DNA from: Nitrospirota bacterium
GTDB taxonomy: Bacteria > Nitrospirota > UBA9217
Assembly: GCA_029858565.1 (NCBI GenBank)
Contig: JAOUEV010000014.1
Coordinates: 1-60,283, forward strand
Length of the DNA stretch: 60,283 nt
Direction of reading: 5' to 3'
The translations under genes and the position numbers were made by a program. The notes beneath the pieces are model-generated. The model was not told the origin of the DNA and searched no databases. It was given only the letters and a program-made list of their open reading frames with translations. Positions 11,853 through 40,457 of the stretch are shown here, piece by piece (position 1 is the stretch's first letter; every line of letters begins with the position of its first letter).

Positions 11853-11853
11853 T

Positions 11854-13422: not shown

Positions 13423-13443
13423 AACATTGAGAGAGAGCGACCC

Positions 13444-13968
13444 ATGCTGAAAGAGATATTGAAGAACCTCATAACCAGAAAGCGAACAATAACCTTCCCA
13501 ACGGGATTCCCGATAGAACCCGGGCAGACTGTTAAGCTTGTTGACATTCAAGGGAAACTTGATACAATCTTCAAAAGATCGCTGCGGATCAGGATGGTCG
13601 ACGCGGGTTCCTGCAACGCCTGTGAATGGGAATGTCAGGCCCTCATGAATCCGTTCTATGATCTTCAAAGGCTCGGCATCGACTTTGTGGCATCGCCGAG
13701 ACATGCCGACGTACTGCTGGTGTCCGGTCCGGTCTCCCGTCAGATGGAACTCGCTCTCAAAAAGACCTATTTCGCAACTCCGGAGCCAAGGCGGGTCGTG
13801 GCTTGCGGCGATTGCGCGGTGAACGGCGGCATCTACCGCGGCAGTTACGCGGTGACCGACGGCGTGGCGAACGTCATTCCCGTTGACGCGATCATTCCGG
13901 GCTGCCCGCCGACGCCTTCGGCGATCATGCTGGGCATCGCCCAGCTCATGAACAAAGACGTGAAGTAA
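13444..13968 (+). CDS. Ehr complex A, NuoB/HyfI-like small subunit
   Basis: A 174-residue iron-sulfur subunit related to NuoB, HyfI and HycG. The proximal [4Fe-4S] ligand pattern is kept: GSCNACEWE (Cys57, Cys60), ACGDCAVNGG (Cys121, Cys124) and IPGCPPTP (Cys154). The N-terminal 50 residues are basic. It directly follows the large subunit; in Hyf and Hyc operons a NuoI-like two-cluster ferredoxin subunit would sit here, and none is present. It ends cluster A, 85 bases before cluster B, so the two clusters may share one transcript. Confidence 0.92.
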   Translation: MLKEILKNLITRKRTITFPTGFPIEPGQTVKLVDIQGKLDTIFKRSLRIRMVDAGSCNACEWECQALMNPFYDLQRLGIDFVASPRHADVLLVSGPVSRQMELALKKTYFATPEPRRVVACGDCAVNGGIYRGSYAVTDGVANVIPVDAIIPGCPPTPSAIMLGIAQLMNKDVK

Positions 13969-14053
13969 GCATGCAGTGATCAGAGAGCTTGACCTTCACC
14001 AATAGCGCGCCATTTCCGTCCGACGACGCGGGTAAGGGCTGTGAGGTGGAAAC

Positions 14054-16099
14054 TTGGTTATCGATCCTGTCCGTATCATGGCGGCGTCCTTCGCCGCGCT
14101 CGTCCTCCTGCTTGTACTGACGATCTTTCTGCGTCGCAGCCAGCGCCTGCTGATAACGGCGGGGTTCTCCCTTGCCGGCCTCGCATCGTTCCTCGCGGCA
14201 GGCGCGGGATTCCTGACTGTTGCTCAGGGGATGACCTTCCGGATCGTCGTACCCCTCGGGCTGCCTGACCTGCCGTTCCATCTGCGACTCGATGTGCTCT
14301 CCGGCTATTTCTTGATGATCATCGGCCTCCTGGCGCTCTTTGTATCGATCTATTCCATCGGCTATGTGCGCGGTTTTCTCGGGGTGAGGCCGGTAACCAG
14401 CCTCGTGGTCTTCTCTACGTTCTTTCTCGCGGGGATGTTCCTTGTAGTTCTCGCTGACGACGCTTTGTTCTTTATGATCGCCTGGGAATTGATGGCCGGC
14501 GCTTCGTACTACCTGGTCATGTTCGAGGACGAGCGCCTGGAGAACAGAAGGGCGTCGTTCCTCTATCTGCTTGTGGCCCATGTCGGCGCCATCGCGATAC
14601 TCCTGTCCTTTGGTATCCTCGCGGGGCTTACGACGGGGTTTCAGGGATTCGAAGGATACACCTTCGACGCCATGCGCGAGGCGAAGCATCCCCAGGCGCT
14701 CGCAACAGCGGCCTTTCTCCTGGCATTTTTCGGGTTCTCTGCAAAGGCGGGCGTGATCCCGCTCCATATCTGGCTGCCCGAGGCCCATCCGGTCGCTCCG
14801 TCGAACGTATCGGCACTGATGAGCGGAGTGATGCTCAAGACGGCTATTTACGGGATGATGCGCGTCATCTTCGATCTGATCGGCGTGTTTCCCTGGTGGT
14901 GGGGCGCTCTGGTGCTGGTATTCGGGCTGATATCGGCGGTGCTCGGCGTTCTCTATGCGCTGCTGCAGCACGACCTCAAGAAGCTTCTTGCCTATTCGTC
15001 GGTGGAGAATATCGGGATCATCCTGATCAGCATGGGCCTGTCCATGATCTTCGCGTCGTTCGGTCTGACCGTGCTTTCCGCGCTGGCGATGATCGCGGCG
15101 CTCTACCACACCCTGAACCATGCAATGTTCAAGGGACTGCTGTTCATGGGCGCGGGCACGGTGCTTCATGCGACCCATGAGCGGTCCATGGAAAAGATGG
15201 GCGGACTCATCAAATTCATGCCCTGGACGAGCGCCCTGTTCCTCGTCGGCTGCCTCTCCATCGCGGCCCTGCCGCCTTTTAACGGATTTGTGTCCGAGTG
15301 GCTGACCTATCAGGCGTTCCTGCTGTCTCCGGCCCTGACCAACCCGCTGCTGAACCTGCTGGTGCCGCTGGGAGCGGCGCTTCTAGCGCTCACCAGCGCT
15401 CTTGCCGCGGCCCTGTTCGTGAAAGCCTACGGGGTGACTTTTCTCGGTCATCGGCGAAGCCGCCATCCTGCCGTGATCCATGAAGCGCCGTGGTCCATGC
15501 GCATCGCCATGTCGTTGGCGGCACTTGCCTGCCTCGCTCTTGGCATCTTCCCGACCTATCTTATCCACTGGATGGACCCGATAACGAAGTTCCTGGTAGG
15601 GGACACGATATCTTCTTCAGCTGCGGGATTCGGGTGGATGTGGCTGACCCCGATCGCCCATGATAGGGCATCCTATTCAGCTCCCGTGGTGTTCGTGGTC
15701 ATCCTTGCCGTGGTGGCCATCACCTATCTGCTGCTGCATTCACGTGCAGGGACGATACGTCGCGGCCCTCTCTGGGGATGCGGTTTTGAAGGCATCACCA
15801 GCCGTATGCAGTACACGGCAATGTCCTTTTCCATGCCTCTGCGCAGGATATTCGGCTTTCTGTTCAGTATCAAGGAAAAGGTCCATCATCTGCCGCCTAC
15901 GACCCACAGCGCTTTTCCCGGCAGACTGCAGTATCATCTTCGCGTGCGGGACCGGGCGTGGATATGGGTCTATCAGCCGATCTCCGACGCCAGTTTCTGG
16001 ATATCCCGCAGGATCGGCCGGATGCAGCACGGACGGATCCAGGTGTACTTGATCTATTCGTTCGTCACGATCATCGTGCTGCTCATTTTTTCTCGATAG
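14054..16099 (+). CDS. Ehr complex B, HyfB-like antiporter-type membrane subunit
   Basis: A 681-residue membrane protein, the second HyfB-like subunit. Ion-path residues are kept: Glu in FMIAWELMAGASYYLVMF, Lys in FFGFSAKAGVIPLHIW and Lys in SGVMLKTAIYG. The C-terminal soluble loop reads GPLWGCGFEGITSRMQYTA. The start is a TTG at 14054 with GAGGTGG just upstream. Comparison by eye with the cluster A copy shows roughly half the residues identical in conserved helices, so the duplication is old rather than a recent tandem copy. It opens cluster B, whose gene order matches cluster A exactly. Confidence 0.9.
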   Translation: MVIDPVRIMAASFAALVLLLVLTIFLRRSQRLLITAGFSLAGLASFLAAGAGFLTVAQGMTFRIVVPLGLPDLPFHLRLDVLSGYFLMIIGLLALFVSIYSIGYVRGFLGVRPVTSLVVFSTFFLAGMFLVVLADDALFFMIAWELMAGASYYLVMFEDERLENRRASFLYLLVAHVGAIAILLSFGILAGLTTGFQGFEGYTFDAMREAKHPQALATAAFLLAFFGFSAKAGVIPLHIWLPEAHPVAPSNVSALMSGVMLKTAIYGMMRVIFDLIGVFPWWWGALVLVFGLISAVLGVLYALLQHDLKKLLAYSSVENIGIILISMGLSMIFASFGLTVLSALAMIAALYHTLNHAMFKGLLFMGAGTVLHATHERSMEKMGGLIKFMPWTSALFLVGCLSIAALPPFNGFVSEWLTYQAFLLSPALTNPLLNLLVPLGAALLALTSALAAALFVKAYGVTFLGHRRSRHPAVIHEAPWSMRIAMSLAALACLALGIFPTYLIHWMDPITKFLVGDTISSSAAGFGWMWLTPIAHDRASYSAPVVFVVILAVVAITYLLLHSRAGTIRRGPLWGCGFEGITSRMQYTAMSFSMPLRRIFGFLFSIKEKVHHLPPTTHSAFPGRLQYHLRVRDRAWIWVYQPISDASFWISRRIGRMQHGRIQVYLIYSFVTIIVLLIFSR

Positions 16100-16122
16100 A
16101 AATACGCAACAGGAGAAAGAAC

Positions 16123-17070
16123 TTGACGATCCCTTCATCGCTTATAGAAACGACCCAGGTGGCGCTGCTGCTCGCGGCCGCACCGCTGTTCACGGGGTGG
16201 GTGAAGATGGTGAAGTGCTGGATGCAGGGCAGGACAGCGCCGAGCCTGCTCCAGCCCTTCCGCGATCTGGCGAAGCTGTTTTCAAAAGACGTGGTGCTGG
16301 CTGAGAATGCCTCCTGGATATTCCGTTTCACACCCTATCTCGTATTCGGCGTCTCGGTCCTGGCAGGGGCGATCATTCCCGTGCTTTCCACGGACCTGCT
16401 GCTGTCGGCAACCGCGGACGTTATCGTCCTGGTCTCGCTCTTTGCCATTGCGCGGTTCTTTACCGCCCTGGCGGGCATGGACATCGGGACCGCGTTCGGG
16501 GGGATGGGCTCAAGCCGTGAAATGACCATCGCGTCCTTGGCAGAACCGGGCATGCTGATGGCCGTGTTCGCGGTATCGCTCGTGGGAAAATCGACATCGC
16601 TCTCTCAGATGACAGCAGTTATTTCCCAGGGCGGACATGCGATGCTGCGGCCGTCGATGGTGTTCGCACTGCTGGCCTTCATTCTCATTGCCCTGGCGGA
16701 AACAGGAAGGATTCCCGTGGACAATCCAGCGACCCATCTGGAGCTTACTATGATCCATGAGGCCATGATCCTGGAATATTCCGGAAGGCATCTCGCGTTG
16801 ATCGAATGGGCGGGGATGATGAAGCTCTATCTCTTCACGGTCCTGGGCATAGCGGCTTTCTTTCCCTGGGGTATCAGCCTGAATAACGACCTTCCGGCCA
16901 TTGCAGGAGCGCTGGTTTTTCTCTTCCTCAAGCTGGGGTTCGTGGGCATGGCTCTTGTGCTGATCGAGACCGGGCTGGCAAAAATGCGGATATTCAGGAT
17001 CACGGAATTCCTGGGAAGCGCGTTCCTGTTCGCCACGCTCGGCATGATGTCGTTCTTCATGCTGGAATAA
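16123..17070 (+). CDS. Ehr complex B, HyfC/HycD/NuoH-like membrane subunit
   Basis: A 315-residue NuoH-type subunit. Hallmarks are MVKCWMQGRTAPSLLQPF, FGGMGSSREMT and AETGRIPVDNPATHLELTMI followed by HEAMILEYSGRHLAL. An in-frame extension upstream is open, but I place the start at the TTG at 16123, because AGGAGA lies seven bases before it and the N-terminus then begins with the first family helix. It falls in the same position as the NuoH-type gene of cluster A. Confidence 0.92.
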   Translation: MTIPSSLIETTQVALLLAAAPLFTGWVKMVKCWMQGRTAPSLLQPFRDLAKLFSKDVVLAENASWIFRFTPYLVFGVSVLAGAIIPVLSTDLLLSATADVIVLVSLFAIARFFTALAGMDIGTAFGGMGSSREMTIASLAEPGMLMAVFAVSLVGKSTSLSQMTAVISQGGHAMLRPSMVFALLAFILIALAETGRIPVDNPATHLELTMIHEAMILEYSGRHLALIEWAGMMKLYLFTVLGIAAFFPWGISLNNDLPAIAGALVFLFLKLGFVGMALVLIETGLAKMRIFRITEFLGSAFLFATLGMMSFFMLE

Positions 17071-17137
17071 GCGTGACAGCAAGCTGCTTTGTCCCTTGCC
17101 GGACAGGGAATAGCGAGATCATGAGAAAGGTGCAGAT

Positions 17138-17803
17138 ATGAATCCGACTGCTGCTGCGCAACTGAACAGTCTTCTGGCTGCTCTGATCCTTCTTACTGCC
17201 TTTGCGCTGGTGGTGCAAAGACGGATGAACGCGCTGCTCCATATTTTCGCGTGGCAGGGGTTCCTTCTCGCGGTCAGCACGGCCATAGTCGGTTTCGTGG
17301 GCGGGGCCCATCATTTATACATATCCTCGTTCCTGACGCTGGGCATCAAGGTGATCCTTCTGCCCTATATCCTGCATCTGCTGATCCATAAACTGAAGAT
17401 CCGCAAAGAGGTCGACTCGGTGATCAATGTTCCGACGACGATGATGATCGGCATCATCCTGGTCATCTATTCCTATCATTTGACCGCGCCGATCAGGGAA
17501 TTATCGACGCTGGTGACCCGATCGACAATTGCCGTGGCGCTTGCCACGTTCATGCTCGGGTTCCTCATGATGATCACCCGGAAGCACGCGGTCGCCCAGA
17601 TCATCGGTTTCCTTGCCATGGAGAACGGACTTCTTTTCGCCGCAACGAGCGCGACCTACGGCATGCCGCTGGTGGTCGAGCTCGGCGTCGCGCTGGACCT
17701 GCTGATCGCGGCATTCATCTTCGGCATGTTCTTTTTCCATATTTCGACCACTTTCGACAGCCTGGATGTGGACCAGATGGCCAGGTTAAAGGAAGAAGAT
17801 TGA
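17138..17803 (+). CDS. Ehr complex B, HyfE/NuoK-like membrane subunit
   Basis: A 221-residue hydrophobic protein of the HyfE type. It shares with the cluster A copy the C-terminal block MMITRKHAVAQIIGFLAMEN and the acidic pair ELGVALDL, while the N-terminal half differs widely. The ATG at 17138 is preceded by AAAGGTG. It lies 67 bases after the HyfC-like gene. Confidence 0.88.
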   Translation: MNPTAAAQLNSLLAALILLTAFALVVQRRMNALLHIFAWQGFLLAVSTAIVGFVGGAHHLYISSFLTLGIKVILLPYILHLLIHKLKIRKEVDSVINVPTTMMIGIILVIYSYHLTAPIRELSTLVTRSTIAVALATFMLGFLMMITRKHAVAQIIGFLAMENGLLFAATSATYGMPLVVELGVALDLLIAAFIFGMFFFHISTTFDSLDVDQMARLKEED

Positions 17804-17848
17804 TGCGTTGCTTCATCGACAACCCGTTCTCCGGGCATAGAGGTTGAT

Positions 17849-19297
17849 ATGTATCTGCTGATCCTGTTGGTCATCCCACTTGCCGCATCGCTGATCCTGG
17901 CGATCATCGGCGACCGGAAATACGCGCCCGAAGTGAATATCGCCTGCTCGGCGGTCTCCTGCGGGGCGAGTATCGTTCTTGGCCTGCAGGTGTACGAGCA
18001 GGGACCGTTCCTGGCCTGGGACAATTTCTTTTTTGTGGACGCGTTCAGCATCTATCTGTCGGTGCTCACGGCGTTCGTTTCCATGACCACGGCTATCTTC
18101 AGCAGGCGCTATATGCGCCGGGAGCGTGAACACGGGACCATCGGCCACCGCAGAATGCGATTCTATCACGCCATGTATCAGCTCTTTATCTTCGCAATGC
18201 TGCTCTGCCTACTGACCAATAACGTGGGGATCCTCTGGATCGCCATGGAACTTGCCACATTGTCCACGGTCCTGCTCGTATCGCTCTATCGCACGCCCAC
18301 CTCGATCGAGGCTGCCTGGAAGTATTTCATTCTCTGCGGCGTCGGCATATCGCTGGCGCTGTTCGGAACGGTCCTTCTTTACTTTGCCGCGGAAAAGGTC
18401 CTGGGGCCCGGAGGCGCGGCACTGCACTGGACGAACCTGGCGAAGGTCAGCAGCCAGCTGGAGCCGACCATCCTGTCCCTTGCCTTTGTGTTCCTTGTGG
18501 TGGGGTACGGCACGAAAGTGGGGCTGGTCCCCATGCATAACTGGCTTCCCGACGCGCACAGCGAAGGCCCGACGCCCATATCTGCCGTGCTTTCCGGTCT
18601 TTTGCTGAACATCGCTCTCTACGCGCTGGTGCGCTGCAAGGTGCTGGTGGATGGATCCACAGGAACCCACCATTCCGGGAACATCATGATGGGATTCGGG
18701 ATACTCTCGATAATGGTCGCATCCTTCTCGATCCTTCGCCAGAAGGACATCAAACGGATGTTCGCCTATTCCTCGATCGAACATATGGGCATCGCTACGT
18801 TTGCTTTCGGCCTGGGAGGGCCGGTCGCGACATTCGGAGCATTGATGCATATGCTGATGCACAGTCTCACTAAATCAGCGATATTCTTTACCGTGGGCCA
18901 TGCGTCCCAGATGCACCGGACCCAGGAAATGGACAAGATACGGGGCCTTATCCGCGGAAACCCGCTTGTCGGATGGGGACTCGCCCTTGGATGCATGGCG
19001 ATCGTGGGCATGCCTCCCTTCGGTGTATTTACCAGCGAGTTCCTGATCCTGACCGCAACGATCAAGGACGCGCCGCTCATGGCGCCGTTCCTGCTGCTCG
19101 GCCTCACCGTGACGTTCGCGGCACTGTTCAGGAAAGTGCAGCATATGGTCGCGGGAGAGGCGCCTGCATATCAGATAAAACTGAAGGCGGCCCACGTCCC
19201 CGTGGTCCTTCACATGGCGCTTGTTCTCGTCCTGGGATTATATCTGCCCAAATTCCTGTCCGGGTGGTTCCAGGCGGCAGTGGGAGTTCTGAAATAA
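17849..19297 (+). CDS. Ehr complex B, HyfF-like antiporter-type membrane subunit
   Basis: A 482-residue antiporter-like subunit. The ion-path Glu is in VGILWIAMELATLSTVLLV and the Lys in FLVVGYGTKVGLVPMHNW. Downstream it has SYSSIEHMGIATFAFGLGGP with Ala preceding (AYSSIEHMG) and VGMPPFGVFTSEF, both typical of HyfF. AGAGGT precedes the ATG. With the HyfB-like protein this gives two antiporter-like subunits per complex, against three in complex I and hydrogenase-4 and one in formate hydrogenlyase-1. Confidence 0.9.
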   Translation: MYLLILLVIPLAASLILAIIGDRKYAPEVNIACSAVSCGASIVLGLQVYEQGPFLAWDNFFFVDAFSIYLSVLTAFVSMTTAIFSRRYMRREREHGTIGHRRMRFYHAMYQLFIFAMLLCLLTNNVGILWIAMELATLSTVLLVSLYRTPTSIEAAWKYFILCGVGISLALFGTVLLYFAAEKVLGPGGAALHWTNLAKVSSQLEPTILSLAFVFLVVGYGTKVGLVPMHNWLPDAHSEGPTPISAVLSGLLLNIALYALVRCKVLVDGSTGTHHSGNIMMGFGILSIMVASFSILRQKDIKRMFAYSSIEHMGIATFAFGLGGPVATFGALMHMLMHSLTKSAIFFTVGHASQMHRTQEMDKIRGLIRGNPLVGWGLALGCMAIVGMPPFGVFTSEFLILTATIKDAPLMAPFLLLGLTVTFAALFRKVQHMVAGEAPAYQIKLKAAHVPVVLHMALVLVLGLYLPKFLSGWFQAAVGVLK

Positions 19298-19337
19298 TGT
19301 ACCGGATATGAAACTTGAAATGAACGGCTGCTGAATC

Positions 19338-20915
19338 ATGGATAAGATCAGACTTAAAAACCTTGTCATGAACGCACTGGGAAGCGACGCCTCCGAGGAT
19401 GACAGCCTTGCGCCGTCAACGGTCATGTCACTTGTCGTTCCCCGGAGCCGTTTCGCTGAGACCGCGCGCATCCTCAAGAAGGAATACGCTCTGCTTGCAG
19501 CGGAATGGGCGTCTGACGAGACCGGGCTGGGCAGGGGATACGGCGTATACGCCTGCTTTCGTCGGGAGAAAGAGTATCTCGTAGTGAAGATGGAAGTGCC
19601 CACGGACGATCCTGTGTTTCCCAGTCTGGTGAAGAAGTATCCCGCGGCATTTCGGTTCGAACGGCAGATCCAGAGCCTTATGGGACTTATGCCAGCCGGC
19701 AATCCGGACAATCGACCCTGGATCAAGCATGAAGATTGGCCGGCAGATGCCTGGCCCCTCAGAAAGACCTTTGACGGAGCGAAAAAGCTGCCCCGTGTAG
19801 CAGGGGAGTATCGCTGGATACGGGCAGAGGGCGAGGGGATCTACGAGATCCCGGTGGGGCCGGTGCATGCGGGCATTATCGAACCGGGGCATTTTCGATT
19901 CCAGGCCATGGGCGAGGATATCATCAATCTGGAAGCGCGGTTGGGCTATGTCCATAAGGGGATCGAGAAGCGCTTCGAGACCCTCTCCTGGGTTGATGCT
20001 TCCCGTCTCGCGGCGCGCGTGTCCGGTGATACGACGGTCGCACATTCGCTGGGCTACGCGCGGGCCGTGGAAGCTCTCGCGGGCTGTATACCCCCGGACC
20101 GGGCGCATTGGCTCCGTGCGCTTTTCCTGGAACGGGAGCGCATCGCGAACCATCTCGGTGATCTGGGCGCGATATGCAATGATGTTGCATTTGCGTTCCT
20201 CTTCTATCAATTCCATAGACTCAAGGAAATCGTGCTTCGCACCAACATGAATCTTTTTGGCCATCGTTTCCTGATGGACCGAATTGTTCCGGGCGGGGTG
20301 ATCGCGGATATCGATCCCGATAAAGCGCAGACCATAATGGAGGAACTGGCGCTGATCGAAAAGGATTTTGAACGCCTTGTGGCGGTCTATGACGATAATT
20401 CATCGCTCGAGGACCGGGTGCGGGATACCGGTGTCCTGCGCTCCGAGGTTGCGCGGGACCTTTGTGTTGTCGGCATTGTTGCGAGGGCCAGCGGATTGAA
20501 CCTCGATTGCCGCATCCATCATCCTTTTCCGCCTTATGACAGGATAGAAGTGAATGTACCGGTGCTTGTTTCCGGCGACGCTCATGCGCGCGCCTGGGTC
20601 AGGGTGGAAGAGGTCCGGGAATCGATCAGGATCATCCGTGAGCTGCTCAGGTCCATGCCTACAGGAAGACTGACAACGCCGATGGACCGTATCATTGCGA
20701 ACAGATCGGGTTTCTCCGCCGTGGAAGGATGGAGAGGCGAGATCATTTACTGGGTCCAGTCCGGCCAGAACGGCGGCATCAACCGCTGCATGGTGCGTGA
20801 TCCCTCAAGCGTTAATTGGCTGGGATTGGAGCAATGCATCCACGGGAATATCGTTCCTGATTTCCCGCTGTGCAACAAGAGCTTTAATCAGTCCTACTCA
20901 GGAAACGATTTATGA
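19338..20915 (+). CDS. Ehr complex B, NuoCD/HyfG-like large subunit lacking Ni-Fe ligands
   Basis: A 525-residue large subunit with an N-terminal NuoC-like domain, more diverged than in cluster A (FRFERQIQSLMGLMPAGNPD), and a NuoD-like domain beginning at IPVGPVHAGIIEPGHFRF. The first metal-ligand motif reads RVSGDT (Ser229, Thr232) and the terminal one NQSYSG (Ser519, Gly522), so all four Ni-Fe cysteines are absent. The protein ends SGNDL with no cleavable extension. The Tyr of LGYVHKGIEKRFE, equivalent to a quinone-site Tyr in complex I, is present, but hydrogenases share that region too. The small-subunit gene overlaps its 3' end by four bases. Confidence 0.93.
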   Translation: MDKIRLKNLVMNALGSDASEDDSLAPSTVMSLVVPRSRFAETARILKKEYALLAAEWASDETGLGRGYGVYACFRREKEYLVVKMEVPTDDPVFPSLVKKYPAAFRFERQIQSLMGLMPAGNPDNRPWIKHEDWPADAWPLRKTFDGAKKLPRVAGEYRWIRAEGEGIYEIPVGPVHAGIIEPGHFRFQAMGEDIINLEARLGYVHKGIEKRFETLSWVDASRLAARVSGDTTVAHSLGYARAVEALAGCIPPDRAHWLRALFLERERIANHLGDLGAICNDVAFAFLFYQFHRLKEIVLRTNMNLFGHRFLMDRIVPGGVIADIDPDKAQTIMEELALIEKDFERLVAVYDDNSSLEDRVRDTGVLRSEVARDLCVVGIVARASGLNLDCRIHHPFPPYDRIEVNVPVLVSGDAHARAWVRVEEVRESIRIIRELLRSMPTGRLTTPMDRIIANRSGFSAVEGWRGEIIYWVQSGQNGGINRCMVRDPSSVNWLGLEQCIHGNIVPDFPLCNKSFNQSYSGNDL

Positions 20916-21421
20916 TCAGGATACTTAAACAAATATTCAGAACCGGCATCAAAACTGAAACAATTCCGCCGGTCCTGGACCCGGAGATCGCAAAGATCGG
21001 CGTCAAGCTCGAAGCGGTCATCAAAAAACGCTTCCGGGGCAGCCTGGCGATCCGCCAGATCGATGCGGGATCCTGCAATGGCTGTGAACTTGAGATACAT
21101 GCCGTGAACAATGTGTTTTACAATTGTGAACGATTCGGCATCCATTTTACCGCATCGCCTCGGTTCGCTGACCTCCTGCTGGTGACCGGTCCGGTCTCCC
21201 GGAACATGGAAATAGCTCTCCGGAGGACCTACGAAGCTACCCCGACTCCGAAGATCGTTGTCGCGGTGGGGGATTGCGGCTGCAATGGCGGCATTTTCGG
21301 CGAGTCTTATGCCACGGTCGGAGCTGTTGACAGCGTTATTCCCGTCGATGCCCGCATTCCAGGCTGTCCGCCGACACCAATAGCGCTTCTGCAGGGTATT
21401 CTCAAGGCCTTGGCCGATTAA
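20912..21421 (+). CDS. Ehr complex B, NuoB/HyfI-like small subunit
   Basis: A 169-residue iron-sulfur subunit. Proximal cluster ligands are GSCNGCELE (Cys55, Cys58), VGDCGCNGG (Cys122, Cys124) and IPGCPPTP (Cys152). Compared with cluster A the middle motif is shifted: CGDCA there, VGDCGC here. The ATG overlaps the stop of the large subunit as ATGA, a sign of coupled translation. It closes cluster B. No hydrogenase maturation gene, ferredoxin or dehydrogenase follows. Confidence 0.92.
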   Translation: MIRILKQIFRTGIKTETIPPVLDPEIAKIGVKLEAVIKKRFRGSLAIRQIDAGSCNGCELEIHAVNNVFYNCERFGIHFTASPRFADLLLVTGPVSRNMEIALRRTYEATPTPKIVVAVGDCGCNGGIFGESYATVGAVDSVIPVDARIPGCPPTPIALLQGILKALAD

Positions 21422-31869: not shown

Positions 31870-31892
31870 ATGAAAGAAAGGGACGTGCTTTG

Positions 31893-33263
31893 ATGCGAGA
31901 TGCCCGTATTCTTATCATGGATGACGACCCGGTTGATCGGGGCAGGATAGAGACATCCCTGCGCGGAAAAGGCTATGACGTAACAGCAGTCGGTCAGGTC
32001 GATCAGGCCATCGAAGTGCTGCGGCGAGAGCGCTTTGATCTGTTCCTGACGGACTGCAATATTCCCGGAGTTGACGCTCTGCAGACCTCGGGCGAGGCAA
32101 GACGGATCAATCCGGACCTGGCCGTGATCATCATGACCGCATTCGGGACCATCGAGACGGCGGTAAAAGCGATCAAGGCCGGAGCCTATGATTATCTTCC
32201 AAAGCCCATCGACCTTGACCAGTTGACCGTTCTTATCGAGCGTGTTTCTGAACGCCAGAACCTGATACGCGAGAACACCCAGCTTCGGGAACAGCTGATC
32301 GAACGGTACCGTTTCGATGAGATAGCAAGCACGAGCCACGCAATGGAAGAGGTCATTAATCTCGCCGGCAGGGTGGCGGGAAGCACGGCCACGGTTCTGC
32401 TTCGAGGGGAGAGCGGTACGGGCAAGGAACTGATCGCCCGGGCGATACATTACCACAGCCCTCGTTCGGCTCAGGCGCTCATAAAGATCAATTGCGCGGC
32501 CCTTCCGGAAACCCTTCTGGAAAGCGAGCTCTTCGGCCACGAAAAAGGGGCCTTTACGGGCGCATCGGCCCGGCGTGCTGGCCGTTTCGAACTTGCGGAC
32601 AAAGGAACGATCTTCCTCGATGAGATCGGAGATGTCTCGCCGGGTGTCCAGGTGAAGCTGCTGCGCGTACTGCAGGAGCGGGAATTCGAGCGGATCGGCG
32701 GGAACCAGACGATCAAGACCGATGTCCGGGTCATTGCCGCGACCAATCGCGACCTTGAGCAGGCCATACGGGAAGGTCGCTTCCGCGAGGACCTGTACTA
32801 CCGCCTGAACGTGGTCACCATCGCGATCCCTCCGCTGCGCGACCGAAAGGAGGATATTCCCGCGCTGCTTGACCATTTTATCAAGAAGTTCGCAAAGGAC
32901 AATCGAAAGAAGATAGCAGGCGTTTCTGTCGAGGCCCGGGACGTGCTGATGCGGTATTCCTATCCCGGGAATGTGCGTGAACTGGAGAATATCATGGAAC
33001 GGGCGGTGGTCCTTGCGAACGGGACGGTCCTCACCGTCGCTGACTTGCCCCTGCACATGCGGTCCGTCGATAGCGAGGAAAAGATCTGTGTCAAAAAGCA
33101 GGGGTCGTCGCTGAACGATACGCTGGATACGGTCGAACGGGGATTGATCATCAAGGCGCTGAAGGATGCGGATGGCGTCCAGACCCGGGCTGCCGACCGA
33201 CTTGGGATCAGTGAACGGGTACTGCGTTACAAACTGAAGAAATACAAGATCCGTGAATCATGA
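31893..33263 (+). CDS. Sigma-54-dependent response regulator, NtrC family
   Basis: A 456-residue enhancer-binding protein with three domains. The receiver (residues 5-120) has Asp10-Asp12 and phosphoacceptor Asp54 in LTDCNIPG. The AAA+ domain has Walker A GESGTGKELIA, the sigma-54 contact loop GAFTGA and the Walker B region FLDEIGD. The C-terminal helix-turn-helix is in TRAADRLGISERVLRYKLKK. No histidine kinase is adjacent. The ATG at 31893 is used; a TTG three bases earlier is possible. Its targets are unknown; the pilin promoter at 37184 is one candidate within the window. Confidence 0.95.
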   Translation: MRDARILIMDDDPVDRGRIETSLRGKGYDVTAVGQVDQAIEVLRRERFDLFLTDCNIPGVDALQTSGEARRINPDLAVIIMTAFGTIETAVKAIKAGAYDYLPKPIDLDQLTVLIERVSERQNLIRENTQLREQLIERYRFDEIASTSHAMEEVINLAGRVAGSTATVLLRGESGTGKELIARAIHYHSPRSAQALIKINCAALPETLLESELFGHEKGAFTGASARRAGRFELADKGTIFLDEIGDVSPGVQVKLLRVLQEREFERIGGNQTIKTDVRVIAATNRDLEQAIREGRFREDLYYRLNVVTIAIPPLRDRKEDIPALLDHFIKKFAKDNRKKIAGVSVEARDVLMRYSYPGNVRELENIMERAVVLANGTVLTVADLPLHMRSVDSEEKICVKKQGSSLNDTLDTVERGLIIKALKDADGVQTRAADRLGISERVLRYKLKKYKIRES

Positions 33264-33293: not shown

Positions 33294-34361
33294 TCAGAAC
33301 TCTCTTTTCACGATATCGTAGGCGGTATTTCTCTGGGCAGCGGCATAGCCCGCGTCCCTGATCAGACTGACGATCTCCTCACGGGACAACCTGAAGGTCA
33401 CTCCCGCCGCTGCAACGACATTCTCCTCGATCATGGTGCTCCCAAAGTCATTTGCCCCGAATTCCAGCGCCACCTGGGCGATCTTCGCTCCCTGGGTGAC
33501 CCAGGATGCCTGGATGTTCGGCACATTGTCCAGCATGACGCGGGAAAGGGCAAGGGTCTTCAGGTACTCCACCGCCGTCGCGGTCCTTCCACCCAGTTCC
33601 GTGTTACCGGGCTGGTAGGTCCAGGGAATGAATGCGGTAAAACCGTGCGTCTCGTCCTGGAGATCCCGCACGCGCACAAGGTGTTGAACGATCTCCTCGC
33701 GTGTTTCCAGGCCGCCGAACATCATGGTCGCGGTCGTCGGCATGCCAAGGCGGTGTGCCTCGCGCATCACGTCCATCCAGTCCCGCCAGCGGATCTTGTT
33801 CGGACTGACCTGCTCCCGCACCCGGTCTACCAGGATCTCGGCTCCGCCGCCGGGGATCGAGTCCAGTCCCGCTTTCTTCAGCCGGATCAGCGTTTCTCCG
33901 ATGGTGATGTTGGCCTTCCGTGCAACGTAGGTTATCTCGGAAGGGGAAAGGGAGTGGACCTGGACAGCGAATCGCGCCTTGATCGATGCAAAGAGGTCCT
34001 CGAAATACTCTATGCCCAGATCGGGATGCACGCCGCCCTGCATCAGGATCTGGGTGCCGCCCAGGGAGATCGTTTCCTCGATCTTCCTGAATATTTCATC
34101 CTTGGTGAGAATATAGGCATCGGGAGATCCCTGCTCGCGGTAAAAGGCGCAGAAGCGGCATTTGTTGACACAGACGTTCGTATAATTGATGTTCCGGTCC
34201 ACGACGAACGTTACCAGCCGTTCCGGATGCAGCCGCTGTTTCACTGCGCTCGCAAGCTCGCCCAGGGTCAAAAGGTCCGCCTCGTTGAAGAGAAAAAGAC
34301 CTTCAGCAGGATCGAGCCTCTTCCCGCTTCGCACCTTTTCGCTGATATCGCTCAATCCCAT
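33294..34361 (-). CDS. mqnC: Cyclic dehypoxanthinyl futalosine synthase MqnC
   Basis: A 355-residue radical SAM enzyme of the futalosine route to menaquinone, cyclising dehypoxanthine futalosine. The cluster ligands are Cys64, Cys68 and Cys71 in CVNKCRFCAFYR, preceded by FVVDRNINYTN, which is typical of MqnC. Other conserved blocks are ILMQGGVHPDL and SIPGGGAEIL. The start overlaps the end of mqnE by ten bases, so the two are co-translated. mqnA, mqnB and mqnD are not in the window. Confidence 0.94.
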   Translation of the reverse strand: MGLSDISEKVRSGKRLDPAEGLFLFNEADLLTLGELASAVKQRLHPERLVTFVVDRNINYTNVCVNKCRFCAFYREQGSPDAYILTKDEIFRKIEETISLGGTQILMQGGVHPDLGIEYFEDLFASIKARFAVQVHSLSPSEITYVARKANITIGETLIRLKKAGLDSIPGGGAEILVDRVREQVSPNKIRWRDWMDVMREAHRLGMPTTATMMFGGLETREEIVQHLVRVRDLQDETHGFTAFIPWTYQPGNTELGGRTATAVEYLKTLALSRVMLDNVPNIQASWVTQGAKIAQVALEFGANDFGSTMIEENVVAAAGVTFRLSREEIVSLIRDAGYAAAQRNTAYDIVKREF

Positions 34362-35425
34362 ATCCGGACCGTTCCGTACAGAGTATCCCGCTCCACCGGC
34401 GTTCTTCCTGCCGTGCAGATGAGATCGATGAGTTCGTTCTTGGTCATGATGCCTTCGGTCGTGCCGCCCGCCATTTTCGTGATCCGCTCCTCAACAACCG
34501 TTCCGTCAATATCATCGACGCCAAAGCTCAGGGAAACCTGTGTGATCTTTTCCCCCAGCATGATCCAATAGGCCTTGATATGGTCTATGTTGTCCAGGAG
34601 AAGCCGGGAAACTGCCAGCGTCTTGAGATCATCGAACCCGGTCGTGAATGCGGCCTTTTTGATCTCCGTGTTCTGTGAATGGAAGCTCAGCGGTATGAAC
34701 GCGTTGAAGCCGCCGGTCCGGTCCTGGAGCTCACGAAGCGTGAGAAGGTGATCGACCCGGTCCTCGATCGATTCAATATGGCCGTAAAGCATCGTTGCGT
34801 TGGACCTGAGCCCTATGCGGTGAGCGGTCTCCATGACCTCGAGCCACCGTGCGCCGGAGATCTTTTCCGCGCAGAGCGTGTTCCTGACGCCGGGTGCGAA
34901 TATCTCTGCCCCGCCTCCAGGAAGCGATCCAAGGCCCGCCTCGTTCAATTTCATCAGCGTATCGCGCACGCTCAGGCCGGAGAGCTTCGACAGATAATCG
35001 ATCTCCACCGCGGTGAACGCCTTGAGGTGGATATGAGGAAACTCTCTCCTGAGCGCATTGAGCATGTCGATGTACCAGGAAAAGGGGAGGTCCGGATGAA
35101 GACCTGACACAATATGGAACTCGCGCACGCCCGGCTGGGCGCTTCGTGCTTTTTGCAGGATGTCCTCGATGGACATCTCGTATGCGCCGGCCTCGCCGCG
35201 GCTCCTGCTGAAAGCGCAGAACTTGCACCGGTTCACGCAGATGTTCGTGGGATTGATGTGCATGTTCTGGACAAAGTAAACGCGGTTCCCGTTCTTTTGC
35301 AGGGCAACGTGGGATGCCATGCGGCCAAGAGCAAGGAGGTCATGGGACCGGAACAACGCGATGCCGTCCTCGCGGGAAAGGCGTTCGCCGGCCAACACTT
35401 TATGGTGAATAAGTTCGATGGGCAT
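34352..35425 (-). CDS. mqnE: Aminofutalosine synthase MqnE
   Basis: A 357-residue radical SAM enzyme that joins the chorismate-derived enolpyruvyl benzoate with SAM to give aminofutalosine. The ligands are Cys63, Cys67 and Cys70 in CVNRCKFCAFSR. The blocks HINPTNICVN, EFHIVSGLHPDLPF and LGSLPGGGAEIF distinguish it from MqnC. It lies 40 bases downstream of the small lipoprotein gene and directly before mqnC. No obvious ribosome-binding site is present at the assigned ATG, which the family length supports. Confidence 0.94.
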   Translation of the reverse strand: MPIELIHHKVLAGERLSREDGIALFRSHDLLALGRMASHVALQKNGNRVYFVQNMHINPTNICVNRCKFCAFSRSRGEAGAYEMSIEDILQKARSAQPGVREFHIVSGLHPDLPFSWYIDMLNALRREFPHIHLKAFTAVEIDYLSKLSGLSVRDTLMKLNEAGLGSLPGGGAEIFAPGVRNTLCAEKISGARWLEVMETAHRIGLRSNATMLYGHIESIEDRVDHLLTLRELQDRTGGFNAFIPLSFHSQNTEIKKAAFTTGFDDLKTLAVSRLLLDNIDHIKAYWIMLGEKITQVSLSFGVDDIDGTVVEERITKMAGGTTEGIMTKNELIDLICTAGRTPVERDTLYGTVRIWD

Positions 35426-35465
35426 TATGAAGATTACATGCAGTAATGGTTCGCTGTTCGAAGGA

Positions 35466-35774
35466 TCAGTTCTTCTTCGTCAGTGTCCCGGTCGAAGGAT
35501 CGTAATCATATGCATCGCTCTTCAACGGGAGTCCGGTGGCTGACAACAATTCGGCCAGGTCAGCGGGATACCGCCCGTTGGTGACATGGAAATCCTGAAT
35601 GGCCTTTCTGGCGGCATCAGCGTGAGCCTTGTCTTCAACGCTTTTCGCGCTTTTCAGCGAATTGACCATCGTAGTGCCGTATTGCTGAGCCGGATTCTTA
35701 TCATCGGTGCATGCAATAATCGTTGCCATGAGCAACGCGGCAATGAGCACTGCACCTGCGGAGAGCTGTTTCAT
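35466..35774 (-). CDS. Small lipoprotein with pseudopilin-like C-terminal half
   Basis: A 102-residue lipoprotein with lipobox TIIAC (Cys22). The ATG at 35774 was chosen because AGGAGGT lies a few bases upstream and it starts the signal peptide. The mature part ends in ARKAIQDFHVTNGRYPADLA followed by DYDPSTGTLTKK, which resembles the globular end of GspG-type pseudopilins (a helix, NGRYP, then a DP-x-G strand). It has no pilin N-terminal helix. It is inserted between the deaminase and mqnE genes with no evident reason. Confidence 0.8.
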   Translation of the reverse strand: MKQLSAGAVLIAALLMATIIACTDDKNPAQQYGTTMVNSLKSAKSVEDKAHADAARKAIQDFHVTNGRYPADLAELLSATGLPLKSDAYDYDPSTGTLTKKN

Positions 35775-35829
35775 TGTCCTACCTCCTGTTGGTTCAACGT
35801 TCGGCAATAAAAAACAAGCGTGATCTCGA

Positions 35830-37047
35830 TCATCCACGGTAAATGATCTTTCCGTTGACCATGGTCATAATACTGGATTCCGTTTCCCTGAGCAAGCCGG
35901 AATAGAAGTCTCCGGTATGGTTACGGGGGAGAGGAACCGCGATCACATCGGCCCTTTTCCCAGGTTCAAGGCTCCCGATATCCTTATCCATTCCCAAAGC
36001 TCGCGCCCCTCCTGTCGTTGCCATCACGAGCATGTCCTTTGGCGAAACGCCGCTCTTTCGATGGAGCTTGCAAGCGAACCGCATCTCATCCCAGAGATTA
36101 AGGTTTGCCACGCTTGCGAGGCTGTCAGTGCCAAGACCCACGGGAATGCCGGCATCAAGCATTTTATTGAGCGGCATAACTCCGACACGGAGCGTTCGGT
36201 TGCTGCGCGGACAGTGGGCAACGGCAGCTCCTCTTCGCTTGATCAGCCGAATGTCACTGTCAGTGACATCTACAGCGTGGACGATCAAGGTATTCGGCCC
36301 AAGCATGCTGTAACGATCAAGCAGAGCAATAGAAGAGGGGGCTTGCGCGAGCCATTTACGGTCCCACCTCGCTGCACGATAGAGCGCCACAAGTCCGCTG
36401 TGAGAACGGCGCAGGAGCCTGCCTTCCTCACGGCTCTCCGCAGCGTGGATTGAGAGACGAAGCCTTTTCCGTTCGGATACATCATGTATGACGCGGAATG
36501 CCTGTTCAGAGACCGTATGAGGCGAGTGGGGTGAGAGACCGAACCGGATCAGGGAGTTGTCCTTTTTGATCAATCCACTGGTGTAAATGAACGGTTTTGA
36601 CGGATCCATGGAGATGATCTCCTGGAACACATAGGCGCGAACACCGCTTCCTGGCAAATGCGCGGGACTTATGCCATGGGTGCATATTTCTCCGATCGTT
36701 GTCGTGCCTGTGCTGACAAGAGCGTTGACATTTCGCTTCACAGCAGCGCCATAATCCTCCCGGGTCAGCTCTCTTTTTTCTTTTATCAGGTCAAGCACCC
36801 AGGAACTGTAGGTTCTGGACTTCAGTCGTTCCAGAAGCGGAGGGATCTCCAGATGGGTGTGAACATTGACCAGCCCGGGCATGACAAGAGCGTTCTGAAG
36901 CGTGATAATCCTTTCTGTGGGATAGGATTTACGCAAAACGTCAATGGGACCATGCCCCTGAATCTTCCCGCTTTTAATGAGGATAGCCCATCGGCTTTTG
37001 GGAAACTGTCCTGTTTTAATGAGAATTTTCTCTGCTATAATCAGCAT
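35830..37047 (-). CDS. Amidohydrolase, probable aminofutalosine deaminase (MqnX-like)
   Basis: A 405-residue metal-dependent hydrolase of the ATZ/TRZ/MtaD type. Metal ligands visible are HTH (His63, His65), the His in SIHAAES, the His in LIVHAVD, and Asp in LGTDSLASV. The family includes adenosine, S-adenosylhomocysteine and aminofutalosine deaminases. Because mqnE and mqnC follow on the same strand, deamination of aminofutalosine to futalosine is the likely reaction. An ATG at 37065 is also possible, but the 37047 start fits the family N-terminus better and has a weak AAGAAG upstream. Assignment of substrate rests on context. Confidence 0.8.
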   Translation of the reverse strand: MLIIAEKILIKTGQFPKSRWAILIKSGKIQGHGPIDVLRKSYPTERIITLQNALVMPGLVNVHTHLEIPPLLERLKSRTYSSWVLDLIKEKRELTREDYGAAVKRNVNALVSTGTTTIGEICTHGISPAHLPGSGVRAYVFQEIISMDPSKPFIYTSGLIKKDNSLIRFGLSPHSPHTVSEQAFRVIHDVSERKRLRLSIHAAESREEGRLLRRSHSGLVALYRAARWDRKWLAQAPSSIALLDRYSMLGPNTLIVHAVDVTDSDIRLIKRRGAAVAHCPRSNRTLRVGVMPLNKMLDAGIPVGLGTDSLASVANLNLWDEMRFACKLHRKSGVSPKDMLVMATTGGARALGMDKDIGSLEPGKRADVIAVPLPRNHTGDFYSGLLRETESSIMTMVNGKIIYRG

Positions 37048-37092
37048 ACACGTACTTCTTACCATTCCTACGTATAAAATGTCAAAGATCTG

Positions 37093-37139
37093 AAAGTGAC
37101 ATAATTTGTCATATAAAGTGACGACATTAGTAACTTGTC
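37093..37139 (+). promoter_or_regulatory. Candidate enhancer (upstream activating) sites for the pilin promoter
   Basis: The octamer AAAGTGAC occurs at 37093-37100 and again at 37115-37122, exactly 22 bases (two helical turns) apart, and each copy is followed by TTGTC (37106 and 37135). The first copy forms the palindrome TGACA-taatt-TGTCA at 37097-37111. The array lies 45-90 bases upstream of the sigma-54 promoter, a normal place for an NtrC/PilR-type activator. Confidence 0.5.
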
Positions 37140-37183
37140 GATAATAAATGCTACAATCCTGTTGAAATTACAGCTTATTATAT

Positions 37184-37199
37184 TGGCATGGTACGTGCA
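37184..37199 (+). promoter_or_regulatory. Sigma-54 promoter of the type IV pilin gene
   Basis: TGGCATG-GTAC-GTGCA matches the sigma-54 pattern with the invariant GG and GC doublets correctly ten bases apart; the only notable mismatch is the first T of TTGCA. It lies about 137 bases before the pilin ATG. Pilin genes of several bacteria are known to be sigma-54 dependent through PilR. The 137-base leader also holds an unused AGGAGGTGA near 37243. Confidence 0.7.
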
Positions 37200-37335
37200 G
37201 TTATAATTAATGACTAGGGAAATTATTCTGCTTTAGGTCTGAGAGGAGGTGAGAATCCCATAGAAGACCTTGAGCGAACATTGCAGTATGTTGTGTAGTA
37301 ACATAATATTAATAGACTATATGGGAGGTATCACA

Positions 37336-37923
37336 ATGCTTAAGAATAAAAAAGGTTTTACGCTTATCGAACTCCTGATCGTGGTGGCCATCATCGCCAT
37401 TCTGGCGGCCATTGCTATCCCGCAGTTCGCTCAGTATCGTATCAGAGGATATAACGCGAGCGCGAACACTGACCTTCGGAACTGCCGTACATCAGAGGAA
37501 GCCCTTTTTGCTGATTGGCAGCGATATGGATCTTCTGAACTTGCAGTCCTTCCAGGTACAGGTGGTAGCGCAGGCGTTGAAATATTGGGTCCTGGCGCAT
37601 CTCCCAACCTTCCGATTCTCACTCTGACCGATGCTGTTGTAGCGCCTCGCGGAATTGGAATTGCTTTGGGAAATAATGTGCTGATTCATGCCGCAAATGA
37701 TGCTGCATGGGCGTCCTATGTCGTGGAAAGCAAACATGTGCAGGGAGATACACTGTATGCTGCAGACGGTGATTCCACAGCAAACTACAGGCAGACAAAT
37801 TCTACCTGGGTAGCGGCTGCAATCAATGGTAATGCGTGCTGTACGGCAAATACTGCTGTTGCATTCCCGACTTCGGTGACTGGAACCAATGAATATGGAG
37901 CAGCTCCCTGGCTTGCCATGTAA
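37336..37923 (+). CDS. Type IV major pilin-like protein
   Basis: A 195-residue prepilin. The class III leader is seven residues (MLKNKKG) and prepilin peptidase would cut before Phe8 in GFTLIELLIVVAIIAILAAI, with Glu12 at mature position 5. The globular domain has three cysteines, Cys50 and the adjacent pair Cys168-Cys169, that could form a disulfide loop near the C-terminus. GGGAGGT lies six bases before the ATG. A terminator follows, then an ABC transporter. Whether it is the main pilus subunit or a minor one cannot be settled; strong promoter features and position favour a major pilin. Confidence 0.9.
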   Translation: MLKNKKGFTLIELLIVVAIIAILAAIAIPQFAQYRIRGYNASANTDLRNCRTSEEALFADWQRYGSSELAVLPGTGGSAGVEILGPGASPNLPILTLTDAVVAPRGIGIALGNNVLIHAANDAAWASYVVESKHVQGDTLYAADGDSTANYRQTNSTWVAAAINGNACCTANTAVAFPTSVTGTNEYGAAPWLAM

Positions 37924-37954: not shown

Positions 37955-37988
37955 ACTCGGATCGCACTTGCGGTCCGAGTGTTTTTTT
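37955..37988 (+). terminator. Rho-independent terminator after the pilin gene
   Basis: ACTCGGATCG pairs with CGGTCCGAGT (one G-T wobble) around a short loop, followed by T7. It would allow much more pilin mRNA than downstream ABC mRNA if readthrough is partial. Confidence 0.88.
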
Positions 37989-38035
37989 ATTATAATATGT
38001 TTTGCGTTTTAGTGGTAAAAAAAAGGGGGGGCTGC

Positions 38036-38785
38036 GTGAAGGCTCTTGAGACTCAAGGCATATCAAAAGGATTTGCTGGAAATATCGGCGTCAAGAGGAT
38101 ACAGGCGCTGTCCGATCTGAACTTGCAGATCGACCAGGGTGAAGTCTTTGGATTTCTCGGCCCAAATGGTGCGGGTAAATCAACGTCTATTAAAATATTA
38201 TTGAATCTCATTTATCCGGACTCCGGTCGCGCAACCATTATGGGCAAGGACGTGAAGGAGAAGGAGGCGCGAAGGCGCGTAGGTTATCTTCCTGAAAACC
38301 CCTATTTCTATGACTATCTGTCCGCCGATGAATTACTCTGGTTCGCCGGACGTGTTTCTGGAATTGACAAAGAAGAGTTGAAAATTCGTGCTGACATGCT
38401 GCTTCACAAGGTAAATCTGCAGAAGGCGCGTTCAAGACATATAAGAACTTACTCAAAAGGGATGGTGCAGCGCGCTGGTCTTGCAATGGCGCTGATTCAT
38501 AATCCGGACATCATTATTCTCGATGAACCCATGAGCGGACTTGATCCCCTCGGAAGAAAGATGGTGGGTGATTTGATACTTGACCTAAAATCCCAGGGGA
38601 AAACGGTTTTCTTCTCCTCCCATATTCTGACAGATATCGAGCGGTTCTGCGACAGGGTTGGCATTATTGTGGGGGGGGAACTGCAACTGATGGATACATT
38701 GGACAACTTGTTAAAGAATAATGCGACGCTTGAGGATATTTTCCTGAAGGTCGTAGAAACAGCAGGCGGAGGGAACGAGGCATGA
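38036..38785 (+). CDS. ABC transporter ATP-binding protein (PilH-like context)
   Basis: A 249-residue ATPase subunit. Motifs are Walker A GPNGAGKST, the signature region in degenerate form YSKGMVQRAG, Walker B IIILDEPMSGLDP and the switch His in FFSSHIL. The start is a GTG at 38036 with a run of seven Gs just upstream. The ATG of the permease overlaps its stop. An ABC ATPase and permease next to a pilin gene recall PilH and PilI of Myxococcus, which are needed for pilus assembly; that link is an inference from order. Confidence 0.9.
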   Translation: MKALETQGISKGFAGNIGVKRIQALSDLNLQIDQGEVFGFLGPNGAGKSTSIKILLNLIYPDSGRATIMGKDVKEKEARRRVGYLPENPYFYDYLSADELLWFAGRVSGIDKEELKIRADMLLHKVNLQKARSRHIRTYSKGMVQRAGLAMALIHNPDIIILDEPMSGLDPLGRKMVGDLILDLKSQGKTVFFSSHILTDIERFCDRVGIIVGGELQLMDTLDNLLKNNATLEDIFLKVVETAGGGNEA

Positions 38786-39594
38786 TAGTACTCTGGCCGA
38801 TAGCGGCAATCACTTTCAAGGAAGGCATCAGGGACAGGGCTCTTTACGGTATAACGCTTTTTGCGCTATCGCTTCTGGGTTTCAGCCTCCTGCTTTCGAA
38901 CATGGCGCCCCGTGATGTCGGGAAGGTGGCTGTGGATATGGCGCTTTCCACTATATCATTCGCTGGTTTGCTCCTCGTCTTGTTCGTGGGAATTAATCTC
39001 ATGGCAAAGGACCTGGACAAGAGAACGATCTACTCGGTCCTGTCCAGGCCTGTTTCCCGATCGGAGTACGTCGTCGGTAAATTCTTCGGGCTGTGCCTCC
39101 TGATCGTCGCAGTTGTGGTTTTCTTGAGCATATTTGCGCTTCTCTCCATCCTCATGCTCAAATTGAGTTACCCGAATTACTTTGAAAAGTTCGCCTGGTC
39201 CCTGGTAATCCTCGCGATCACATTCGAGGGCGCTATGCTGATACTTCTGTCAGCGATCAGTTTTTTCTTCGCTTCCCTGACGTCAACGTCTTTTGTCACG
39301 CTTGTGCTGACGGTCATATCCTACCTTATCGGAAACTCTATCCGTGACGTGAAAGCTCTAGTGGAGTCGCCCGCAGCGGCCGGTATCCAGATATCGCCTG
39401 TCATGGTTAAAACCGTGCAAGCCGCATACTACCTTTTCCCAAATCTCTCTTTGTTCGATGTCAAGATACAGGCTGCCCATGGCCTTCCGATCCCCTTAAA
39501 CTATATTCTCCTGCTTTTATTGTATTTTGTCGTCTATTCCAGCCTGGTGATCACGCTTGCGGCGCTGATTTTCAGGCGCAAGGAGTTCCCCTGA
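38782..39594 (+). CDS. ABC-2 type transporter permease (PilI-like context)
   Basis: A 270-residue membrane protein with about six hydrophobic segments, of the ABC-2 permease type. The N-terminal TFKEGIRDRALYGITLFALS and the motif DKRTIYSVLSRPVSRSEYVV are typical of this group (compare NosY and similar permeases). It overlaps the ATPase gene by four bases and the next gene by one, so all three should be made together. The cargo is unknown. Confidence 0.87.
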   Translation: MIVLWPIAAITFKEGIRDRALYGITLFALSLLGFSLLLSNMAPRDVGKVAVDMALSTISFAGLLLVLFVGINLMAKDLDKRTIYSVLSRPVSRSEYVVGKFFGLCLLIVAVVVFLSIFALLSILMLKLSYPNYFEKFAWSLVILAITFEGAMLILLSAISFFFASLTSTSFVTLVLTVISYLIGNSIRDVKALVESPAAAGIQISPVMVKTVQAAYYLFPNLSLFDVKIQAAHGLPIPLNYILLLLLYFVVYSSLVITLAALIFRRKEFP

Positions 39595-40457
39595 TGCGGA
39601 GGCTGTTGACGGCTGTCATATTCATGCTTCTTTGTATTGCGCACGTCGTTATTCTGGAAAAGGCGTCGGAGAGCAGGAATACGCTCCCTGTAGTCAATGA
39701 TACCGAGGAGATGGTTTTACCATCGTCGGTCCTGAAGATATCGTCCGGCGAATTCGACTCGCTCGTATCGGATTACCTTTTCCTCAAAATGCTGGTGTTT
39801 GCTGGTGAAAAAACAGACGAACGCGGAAGTGTGATCATGACTGATCAGGAATGGAGGCTGTTCTATCAAACGCTTGAAGCGTCGAGCGATCTGGATCCCT
39901 ATTTTGTCGATCCCTATTTCATCGGCAATGCGTTTCTGACCTGGGATGGGAACATGATCAAGGAGGCCAACGCTCTTTTGGAGAAGGGGAGCCGCCACCG
40001 CGATTGGGATTGGTCACTGCCTTTTTTTCTAGGGTTTAATCACTTTTTCTTTTTGGATGACAACGAAAAAGCCGGCACATATATGATGGAAGCGGCGCGC
40101 AGACCCGGAGCCAGCCCGAGTTTGGCAGGACTAGCGTCGAAACTTGCGTTCAAAGCCAATCGTGTCGAGACGTCAATCGCTTTTTTGGAAGAGATCCGGA
40201 ATAGCACCGAAGACGAAAGCCTCAGGAAACTCTACGAGACCAGGATTGAAGCGTTGAGGGCGATCCTTGTGTTGGAACAGGCGGTGGACGTTTACCGGAA
40301 AAAATACACGAAAAGGCCTCTGGAAATAGGTGATTTGATAACGGCAAAGATCATAGCGGAAATTCCGGTTGATCCATATGGAGGAAGGTTCTATATCGAC
40401 AAATCGGGATCGATAAAAACGACGAGTGAAAAAGAGTTACTGCCGCATCGCAGATGA
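39594..40457 (+). CDS. Membrane-anchored TPR-like protein of the pilin locus (PilG-like context)
   Basis: A 287-residue protein with one N-terminal membrane helix or signal (residues 1-20). The middle holds helical repeats with weak TPR character (DPYFIGNAFLTWDGNMIKEA, LPFFLGFNHFFFLDDNEKAG, LASKLAFKANRVETSIAFLE). The last 40 residues (VYRKKYTKRPLEIGDL, then IPVDPYGGRFYIDKSG) again resemble the end of a pseudopilin. It shares one base with the permease stop. In Myxococcus a third protein, PilG, accompanies PilH and PilI; equivalence here is only positional. Confidence 0.75.
   Translation: MRRLLTAVIFMLLCIAHVVILEKASESRNTLPVVNDTEEMVLPSSVLKISSGEFDSLVSDYLFLKMLVFAGEKTDERGSVIMTDQEWRLFYQTLEASSDLDPYFVDPYFIGNAFLTWDGNMIKEANALLEKGSRHRDWDWSLPFFLGFNHFFFLDDNEKAGTYMMEAARRPGASPSLAGLASKLAFKANRVETSIAFLEEIRNSTEDESLRKLYETRIEALRAILVLEQAVDVYRKKYTKRPLEIGDLITAKIIAEIPVDPYGGRFYIDKSGSIKTTSEKELLPHRR

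Follow-up and report, generated by a model that had tools for sequence, protein, structure and literature searches.

A probable PilS-PilR/sigma-54 control region of a major pilin gene in a Nitrospirota bacterium, with a predicted non-initiating Shine-Dalgarno sequence in the mRNA leader

The window, a stretch of 60,283 nucleotides from a Nitrospirota genome, carries on its forward strand a gene for a major type IV pilin-like protein of 195 residues (pilA, 37336-37923), which matches Pfam N_methyl (PF07963) and, above the cut-off, TIGR02532. The closest named relative of this pilin comes from 'Nitrospirae bacterium' (L063, 53% identity). Direct reading places the ribosome-binding site of pilA, GGGAGGTA, at 37323-37330 (+). 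An intrinsic terminator (37955-37980, +) follows the gene, suggesting that pilA is probably monocistronic. Past the terminator lie an ABC transporter ATPase, an ABC-2 permease and a 287-residue protein (37979-40457), the last with no Pfam or NCBIfam match. On the other side, two radical-SAM genes and an aminofutalosine-deaminase-like amidohydrolase gene (33294-37065; best NCBIfam match PRK08418, below the cut-off) adjoin the pilin gene in divergent transcription. The radical-SAM genes have a look that we take to be that of menaquinone synthesis of the futalosine type. Genes resembling those of membrane hydrogenases and complex I form two tandem clusters elsewhere in the window (6630-21421). 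The CxxC motif is wholly absent from both hydrogenase large-subunit-like proteins (11854-13422 and 19338-20915), and the clusters thus look like duplicate 'hydrogenase-related' complexes without the metal site, presumably of the type named Ehr.

The region upstream of pilA contains two copies of the octamer AAAGTGAC on the forward strand (37093-37100 and 37115-37122), exactly 22 bp apart as given in the preliminary description. Only 0.01 pairs of this 30-bp arrangement with up to two mismatches are expected from shuffled windows, and the exact pair with a spacer of 13-15 bp occurs a single time in the whole 3.9-Mb genome. The first copy was said to lie within a TGACA/TGTCA palindrome, and it does overlap a perfect one, TGACATAATTTGTCA, at 37097-37111. 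This dyad, TGACA-TAATT-TGTCA, is centred at about -106 and is the predicted PilR enhancer site 1; dyads of the form TGACA-N5-TGTCA occur five times in the source genome. The second copy runs on into a degenerate dyad, TGACGACATTAGTAACTTGTCG (37119-37140, about -91 to -70), which was read directly and is the predicted PilR site 2. The motif TTGTC had been described as a repeat following each octamer. However, TTGTC is found at 37106 and 37135, 29 bp apart rather than 22. Its distances from the two octamer copies are unequal, and thus the octamer and TTGTC are not repeated as one unit.

Downstream of the repeats, the sequence TTGGCATGGTACGTGCA (37183-37199, +) has the GG-N10-GC spacing of a sigma-54 promoter, at the place where such a box had been proposed. 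The sigma-54 consensus by itself is not above chance in the 60-kb window, with 46 matches at up to two mismatches versus 56 expected. The support for the box is thus its conservation, which is seen in all five aligned leaders of family f1, with TGGCA and TGCA invariant. From sigma-54 geometry, transcription is predicted to start at 37210 (+), 12 nt past the C of the -12 element, giving a leader of ~126 nt.

Comparisons with related pilin loci, one from the same genus (G001) and two from the same family (G006 and G009), showed that the dyad, a second TGAC 21-22 bp further on and the box are all kept, while the remainder has diverged. In a further relative (G005) the box is kept and the scanned stretch has no intact dyad. 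The relatives keep only the TGAC/TGTC letters of the octamer, which was therefore rejected as a conserved unit. Thus the octamers, the palindrome and the GG-N10-GC box of the preliminary description all exist, and its suggestion to compare the region in relatives gave a divided answer: the conserved unit is the TGACA-N5-TGTCA dyad with its second TGAC, not the octamer. A chance origin of the repeats and the box could draw on the frequency of the box in the window and on the five places of the dyad in the genome. It would have to account for an order and spacing of dyad, second TGAC and box that three family relatives preserve despite different surrounding letters, and for the excess of the combined pattern in the phylum described below, and we regard it as extremely unlikely.

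The phylum was searched for the pattern dyad-N63-93-GGYAY-N7-GC in 395 genomes, with the reversed pattern as a control. The dyad and box occur together in 83 of the 395 genomes, with 107 matches listed versus 8 for the reversed pattern, a ~13-fold excess. All 107 listed matches were read, counting a prepilin gene when its start lies within 700 nt and a box as good when it scores at least 10 of 13. A prepilin gene follows in 48 matches, among them the one here, whose prepilin gene stands directly 3' of the promoter; the others have a good box (36) or a poor box (23) and no prepilin gene. The dyad-box spacings cluster at 63-64, 71-76 and 81-89 bp in the prepilin matches and the good-box matches and show no such clusters in the poor-box matches. 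Extra TGACA copies bunch around the dyad at the 48 prepilin loci (13 at +19 to +22 and 11 at -22 to -19), loci that were selected by dyad and box and are related to one another. The helical phasing between dyad and promoter (Rayleigh R of 0.61 at 10.5 bp) is weak, because nearby periods are nearly equal, the 71-76 mode dominates and the loci are related; the dyad distances of the pilR-linked loci, 108 and 110 bp, do not fit the 10.5-bp period neatly. Taken with the conservation, the layout claimed in the preliminary description, a sigma-54 pilin promoter with a tandem enhancer of the PilR/NtrC type, is well supported at the level of prediction.

The same arrangement is also found at other genes. 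At four loci of the phylum (L153, L154, L155 and L156), the translations read behind dyad and box resemble class A penicillin-binding protein and cell-wall peptidase, and a wider PilR regulon is possible. Such targets would fit the cell-wall targets of Geobacter PilR reported in PMC6058289. The search was repeated in 297 genomes from the phylum to which a Desulfobacteraceae genome (L064) belongs; 50 dyad-box matches were listed, with none for the control. A prepilin gene stands behind the pattern at only 7 of the 29 loci parsed (30 fetched), so that other regulators, or a larger regulon, may make use of the box. Many dyad and sigma-54 sites of that phylum (L286-L291), often of the form TGACAAAAATTGTCA, have no prepilin gene downstream.

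The preliminary description found no pilS-pilR pair next to the promoter and named the NtrC-type regulator at 31893 as a candidate activator. The first statement is true within the window, but the same genome carries the pair on another contig, C73, in a pilB-pilT-pilC-pilS-pilR cluster. There pilS and pilR (6949-10007) overlap by four bases, and the PilS kinase has the Pfam 6TM_PilS membrane domain. The source genome encodes 25 long NtrC-type activators, and five further matches are weak AAA matches. A recognition-helix search of all 25 activators found the PilR-type helix [ST]FRSxR[HY]R in one, the C73 gene at 8643-10007, as LTFRSFRHR. In a related locus (L105, genome G019) the stop codon of a PilR-type gene with the helix LSFRSFRHR shares bases with the dyad, and in the Desulfobacteraceae genome the dyad is placed after a PilR-type gene with the helix LSLRSFRYR.

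The regulator proposed earlier, encoded at 31890-33263 (+), combines a receiver, a GAFTGA-bearing domain for sigma-54 activation and an HTH_8 domain. It keeps the GAFTGA motif and the receiver and can thus be a sigma-54 activator of something. That it, or another NtrC-type activator of the genome, binds the dyads instead of PilR would agree with its 46% identity to PilR, its position 4 kb from the dyads and the many dyad-box matches ahead of non-pilin genes. However, its recognition helix, ISERVLRYK, differs from that of PilR, its neighbours are non-pilus genes (cNMP-binding and Ppx/GppA), and in two relatives the dyad is located at a pilR gene. Binding by such a regulator is therefore considered unlikely, and the gene at 31890 is not this genome's PilR. 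The cluster with a PilS-type kinase, the unique PilR-type helix and the dyads at pilR genes make PilR the better candidate. PilR is thus the predicted activator of pilA, and the 31890 regulator is not needed.

The predicted leader contains a stand-alone Shine-Dalgarno (SD) sequence, AGGAGGTGA, at 37244-37252 (+), with no start codon at the usual distance. It resembles a STAB-SD. The nine nucleotides are the exact complement of the 3' end of the organism's own 16S rRNA (GGCTGGATCACCTCCTTTCT, contig C115). The leader SD ends 84 nt ahead of the pilA ATG, lies ~35 nt from the predicted 5' end and is clearly separate from the GGGAGGT that serves the pilin itself. In the source genome the combination of box and AGGAGGTGA occurs once only, at pilA; in other genomes many matches to this combination resemble ordinary short leaders.

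The leader SD was followed in 44 of the 48 prepilin loci, those with a leader of at least 90 nt; these loci had been picked solely for their dyad and box and are not independent. In 33 of the 44 leaders the word GGRGGTG is found at a distance of more than 50 nt ahead of the assigned ATG, versus a mean of 0.8 and a largest value of 4 in 200 shuffles, and is present in 10 of 13 families. Its reverse complement and the reversed word were each found in 0 of the 44 leaders. The word was found at 2 of 36 non-pilin promoters of similar kind and in none of the 48 untranscribed spacers between dyad and box. Its median position is 37 nt past the promoter box, or ~27 nt from the predicted start. The word is missing from 11 of the 44 leaders, and five of the seven leaders of family f17 are without it. 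In the phylum of the Desulfobacteraceae genome it is present in one of five pilin leaders, and the claim is not extended to that phylum. A perfect SD that seems not to initiate is a feature of the predicted mRNA leader of many pilin genes of the phylum. A literature search for a non-initiating SD in pilin mRNA found nothing, which does not prove absence.

Perfect SDs usually signal initiation, and the one here could open a short leader peptide through which pilA translation is controlled. An ATG does stand 5 or 11 nt behind the SD in two of the 33 leaders (L167 and L243). However, ATG, GTG or TTG codons 4-12 nt behind the SD number 2, where the remaining leader sequence predicts 14.2 (p = 6e-5), and the GTG inside the SD opens frames of 2 to 101 codons (one running past the available stretch) whose phase to the pilin reading frame varies. 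The leader peptide was rejected on the start-codon depletion and the inconsistent frames, and we hold it to be improbable. The depletion instead suggests that the leader SD, which seems not to serve initiation, is under selection against starting translation.

Folding predictions place the SD of the window in a leader hairpin with the arms GCTTTAGGTCT and AGACCTTGAGC (37230-37275, +). The SD-enclosing stem is also predicted, with changed letters, in the three relatives from the same genus and family (G001, G006 and G009). Four family-f1 leaders have the SD in a predicted stem of ~10 pairs with compensating changes at some pairs, although the sequences are too few for a formal claim of covariation. 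In this family the predicted fold pairs some of the SD with a conserved CCC, which could weaken ribosome binding. Instead of a ribosome site, the purine run may be a target of an RNA-binding protein like CsrA or may belong to a riboswitch-like fold, a reading in line with the GGA in the hairpin loop of family f1 and the compensating letters of the stem. Conservation nevertheless reaches GGTGA(TC), past the GGA core, as a 16S complement predicts, with complementarity of up to 12 nt (AAGGAGGTGATC in L243), and no common hairpin surrounds the SD in the other families. A search of the window and 20 related loci found no Rfam family at the gathering score. A further scan gave only a snoRNA with a score of 14 bits (E 3.5), and a riboswitch or other catalogued RNA was rejected. 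Such a regulatory site is rather unlikely, and ribosome binding that protects the mRNA is the likeliest role that we infer for the leader SD.

Other hairpins were observed nearer to the pilin start. A short A+T-rich hairpin, TATGTT-GTGTAGT-AACATA (37287-37305, +), stands ahead of the pilin ribosome-binding site. Hairpins at this place average 9.7 versus 3.3 in shuffles. However, 18 of the 48 loci have no hairpin with a perfect stem of at least 5 in the scanned stretch, and therefore no claim is made for it. Many pilin leaders of the phylum (L146-L248) have a second, G+C-rich hairpin with a CCTTTGG-like loop just before the ribosome-binding site; in examples such as CGACCTTTGGTCG, ATCCGCCATTGGCGGAT and TTCTGCCTTTGGCAGAA the stems differ and the pairing stays.

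The locus is probably a PilS-PilR/sigma-54 control region of the major pilin gene whose leader carries a non-initiating, mRNA-stabilising SD. From the sequence we infer the following order of events, in which the binding of PilR and of the 30S subunit, the start of transcription and the stabilisation of the mRNA are all predicted. PilR, whose gene stands beside pilS on another contig, would occupy the dyad at 37097-37111 together with the weaker site 22 bp further downstream. Looping of the DNA would then let it activate the sigma-54 RNA polymerase positioned at 37183-37199. The mRNA starting at about 37210 would expose the leader SD ~35 nt from its 5' end, in family f1 within a hairpin loop. 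The leader SD would then hold a 30S subunit without initiation, shielding the 5' end and stabilising an abundant structural mRNA. More tentatively, and with somewhat less than even confidence, this may hold phylum-wide, PilR/sigma-54 pilin mRNAs carrying a conserved non-initiating 5' docking site for the 30S subunit that sets the amount of pilin via mRNA protection.

In a phylum where genetics is scarce, the promoter provides a PilR box open to testing, namely TGACA-N5-TGTCA and a further site at a distance of 20-22 bp, and the leader is a statistically strong case of an SD seemingly selected against translation start. If the SD stabilises the pilin mRNA, a post-transcriptional layer would be added to pilus control, and the leader would be a natural system for idle 30S binding that protects mRNA in Gram-negative bacteria. 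If this is true phylum-wide, the STAB-SD principle would extend outside Firmicutes and be tied to one regulon.

In the STAB-SD of cry3A from Bacillus thuringiensis, a ribosome-binding SD shields the 5' end of the mRNA and stabilises it. The present leader differs from it in phylum, in belonging to a sigma-54 pilin mRNA, in its predicted unprocessed 5' end and in the predicted hairpin around the SD in family f1. The two are alike in having a perfect SD far from the start codon and a highly expressed structural product, and the present SD is predicted to resemble that of cry3A also in lying near the 5' end and in having no use in initiation. Tandem enhancers of the NtrC glnA type consist of two dyads about two helical turns apart. 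The predicted sites share this spacing and are similarly placed, some 70-115 bp ahead of a sigma-54 start, whereas the half-site letters and the pilin target are different. The PilR consensus of Pseudomonas aeruginosa is (C/G)TGTC. For Geobacter sulfurreducens, PMC6058289 describes GTCT elements and 54 predicted loci. The locus resembles the PilS-PilR/RpoN control of pilA in these two species and in Myxococcus xanthus in its sigma-54 promoter, upstream tandem half-sites of the TGTC type, pilS-pilR pair and pilin target. Unlike these systems, the predicted sites here comprise a TGACA-N5-TGTCA dyad of perfect symmetry and, 20-22 bp away, another site, and pilS-pilR lie with pilB, pilT and pilC on another contig.
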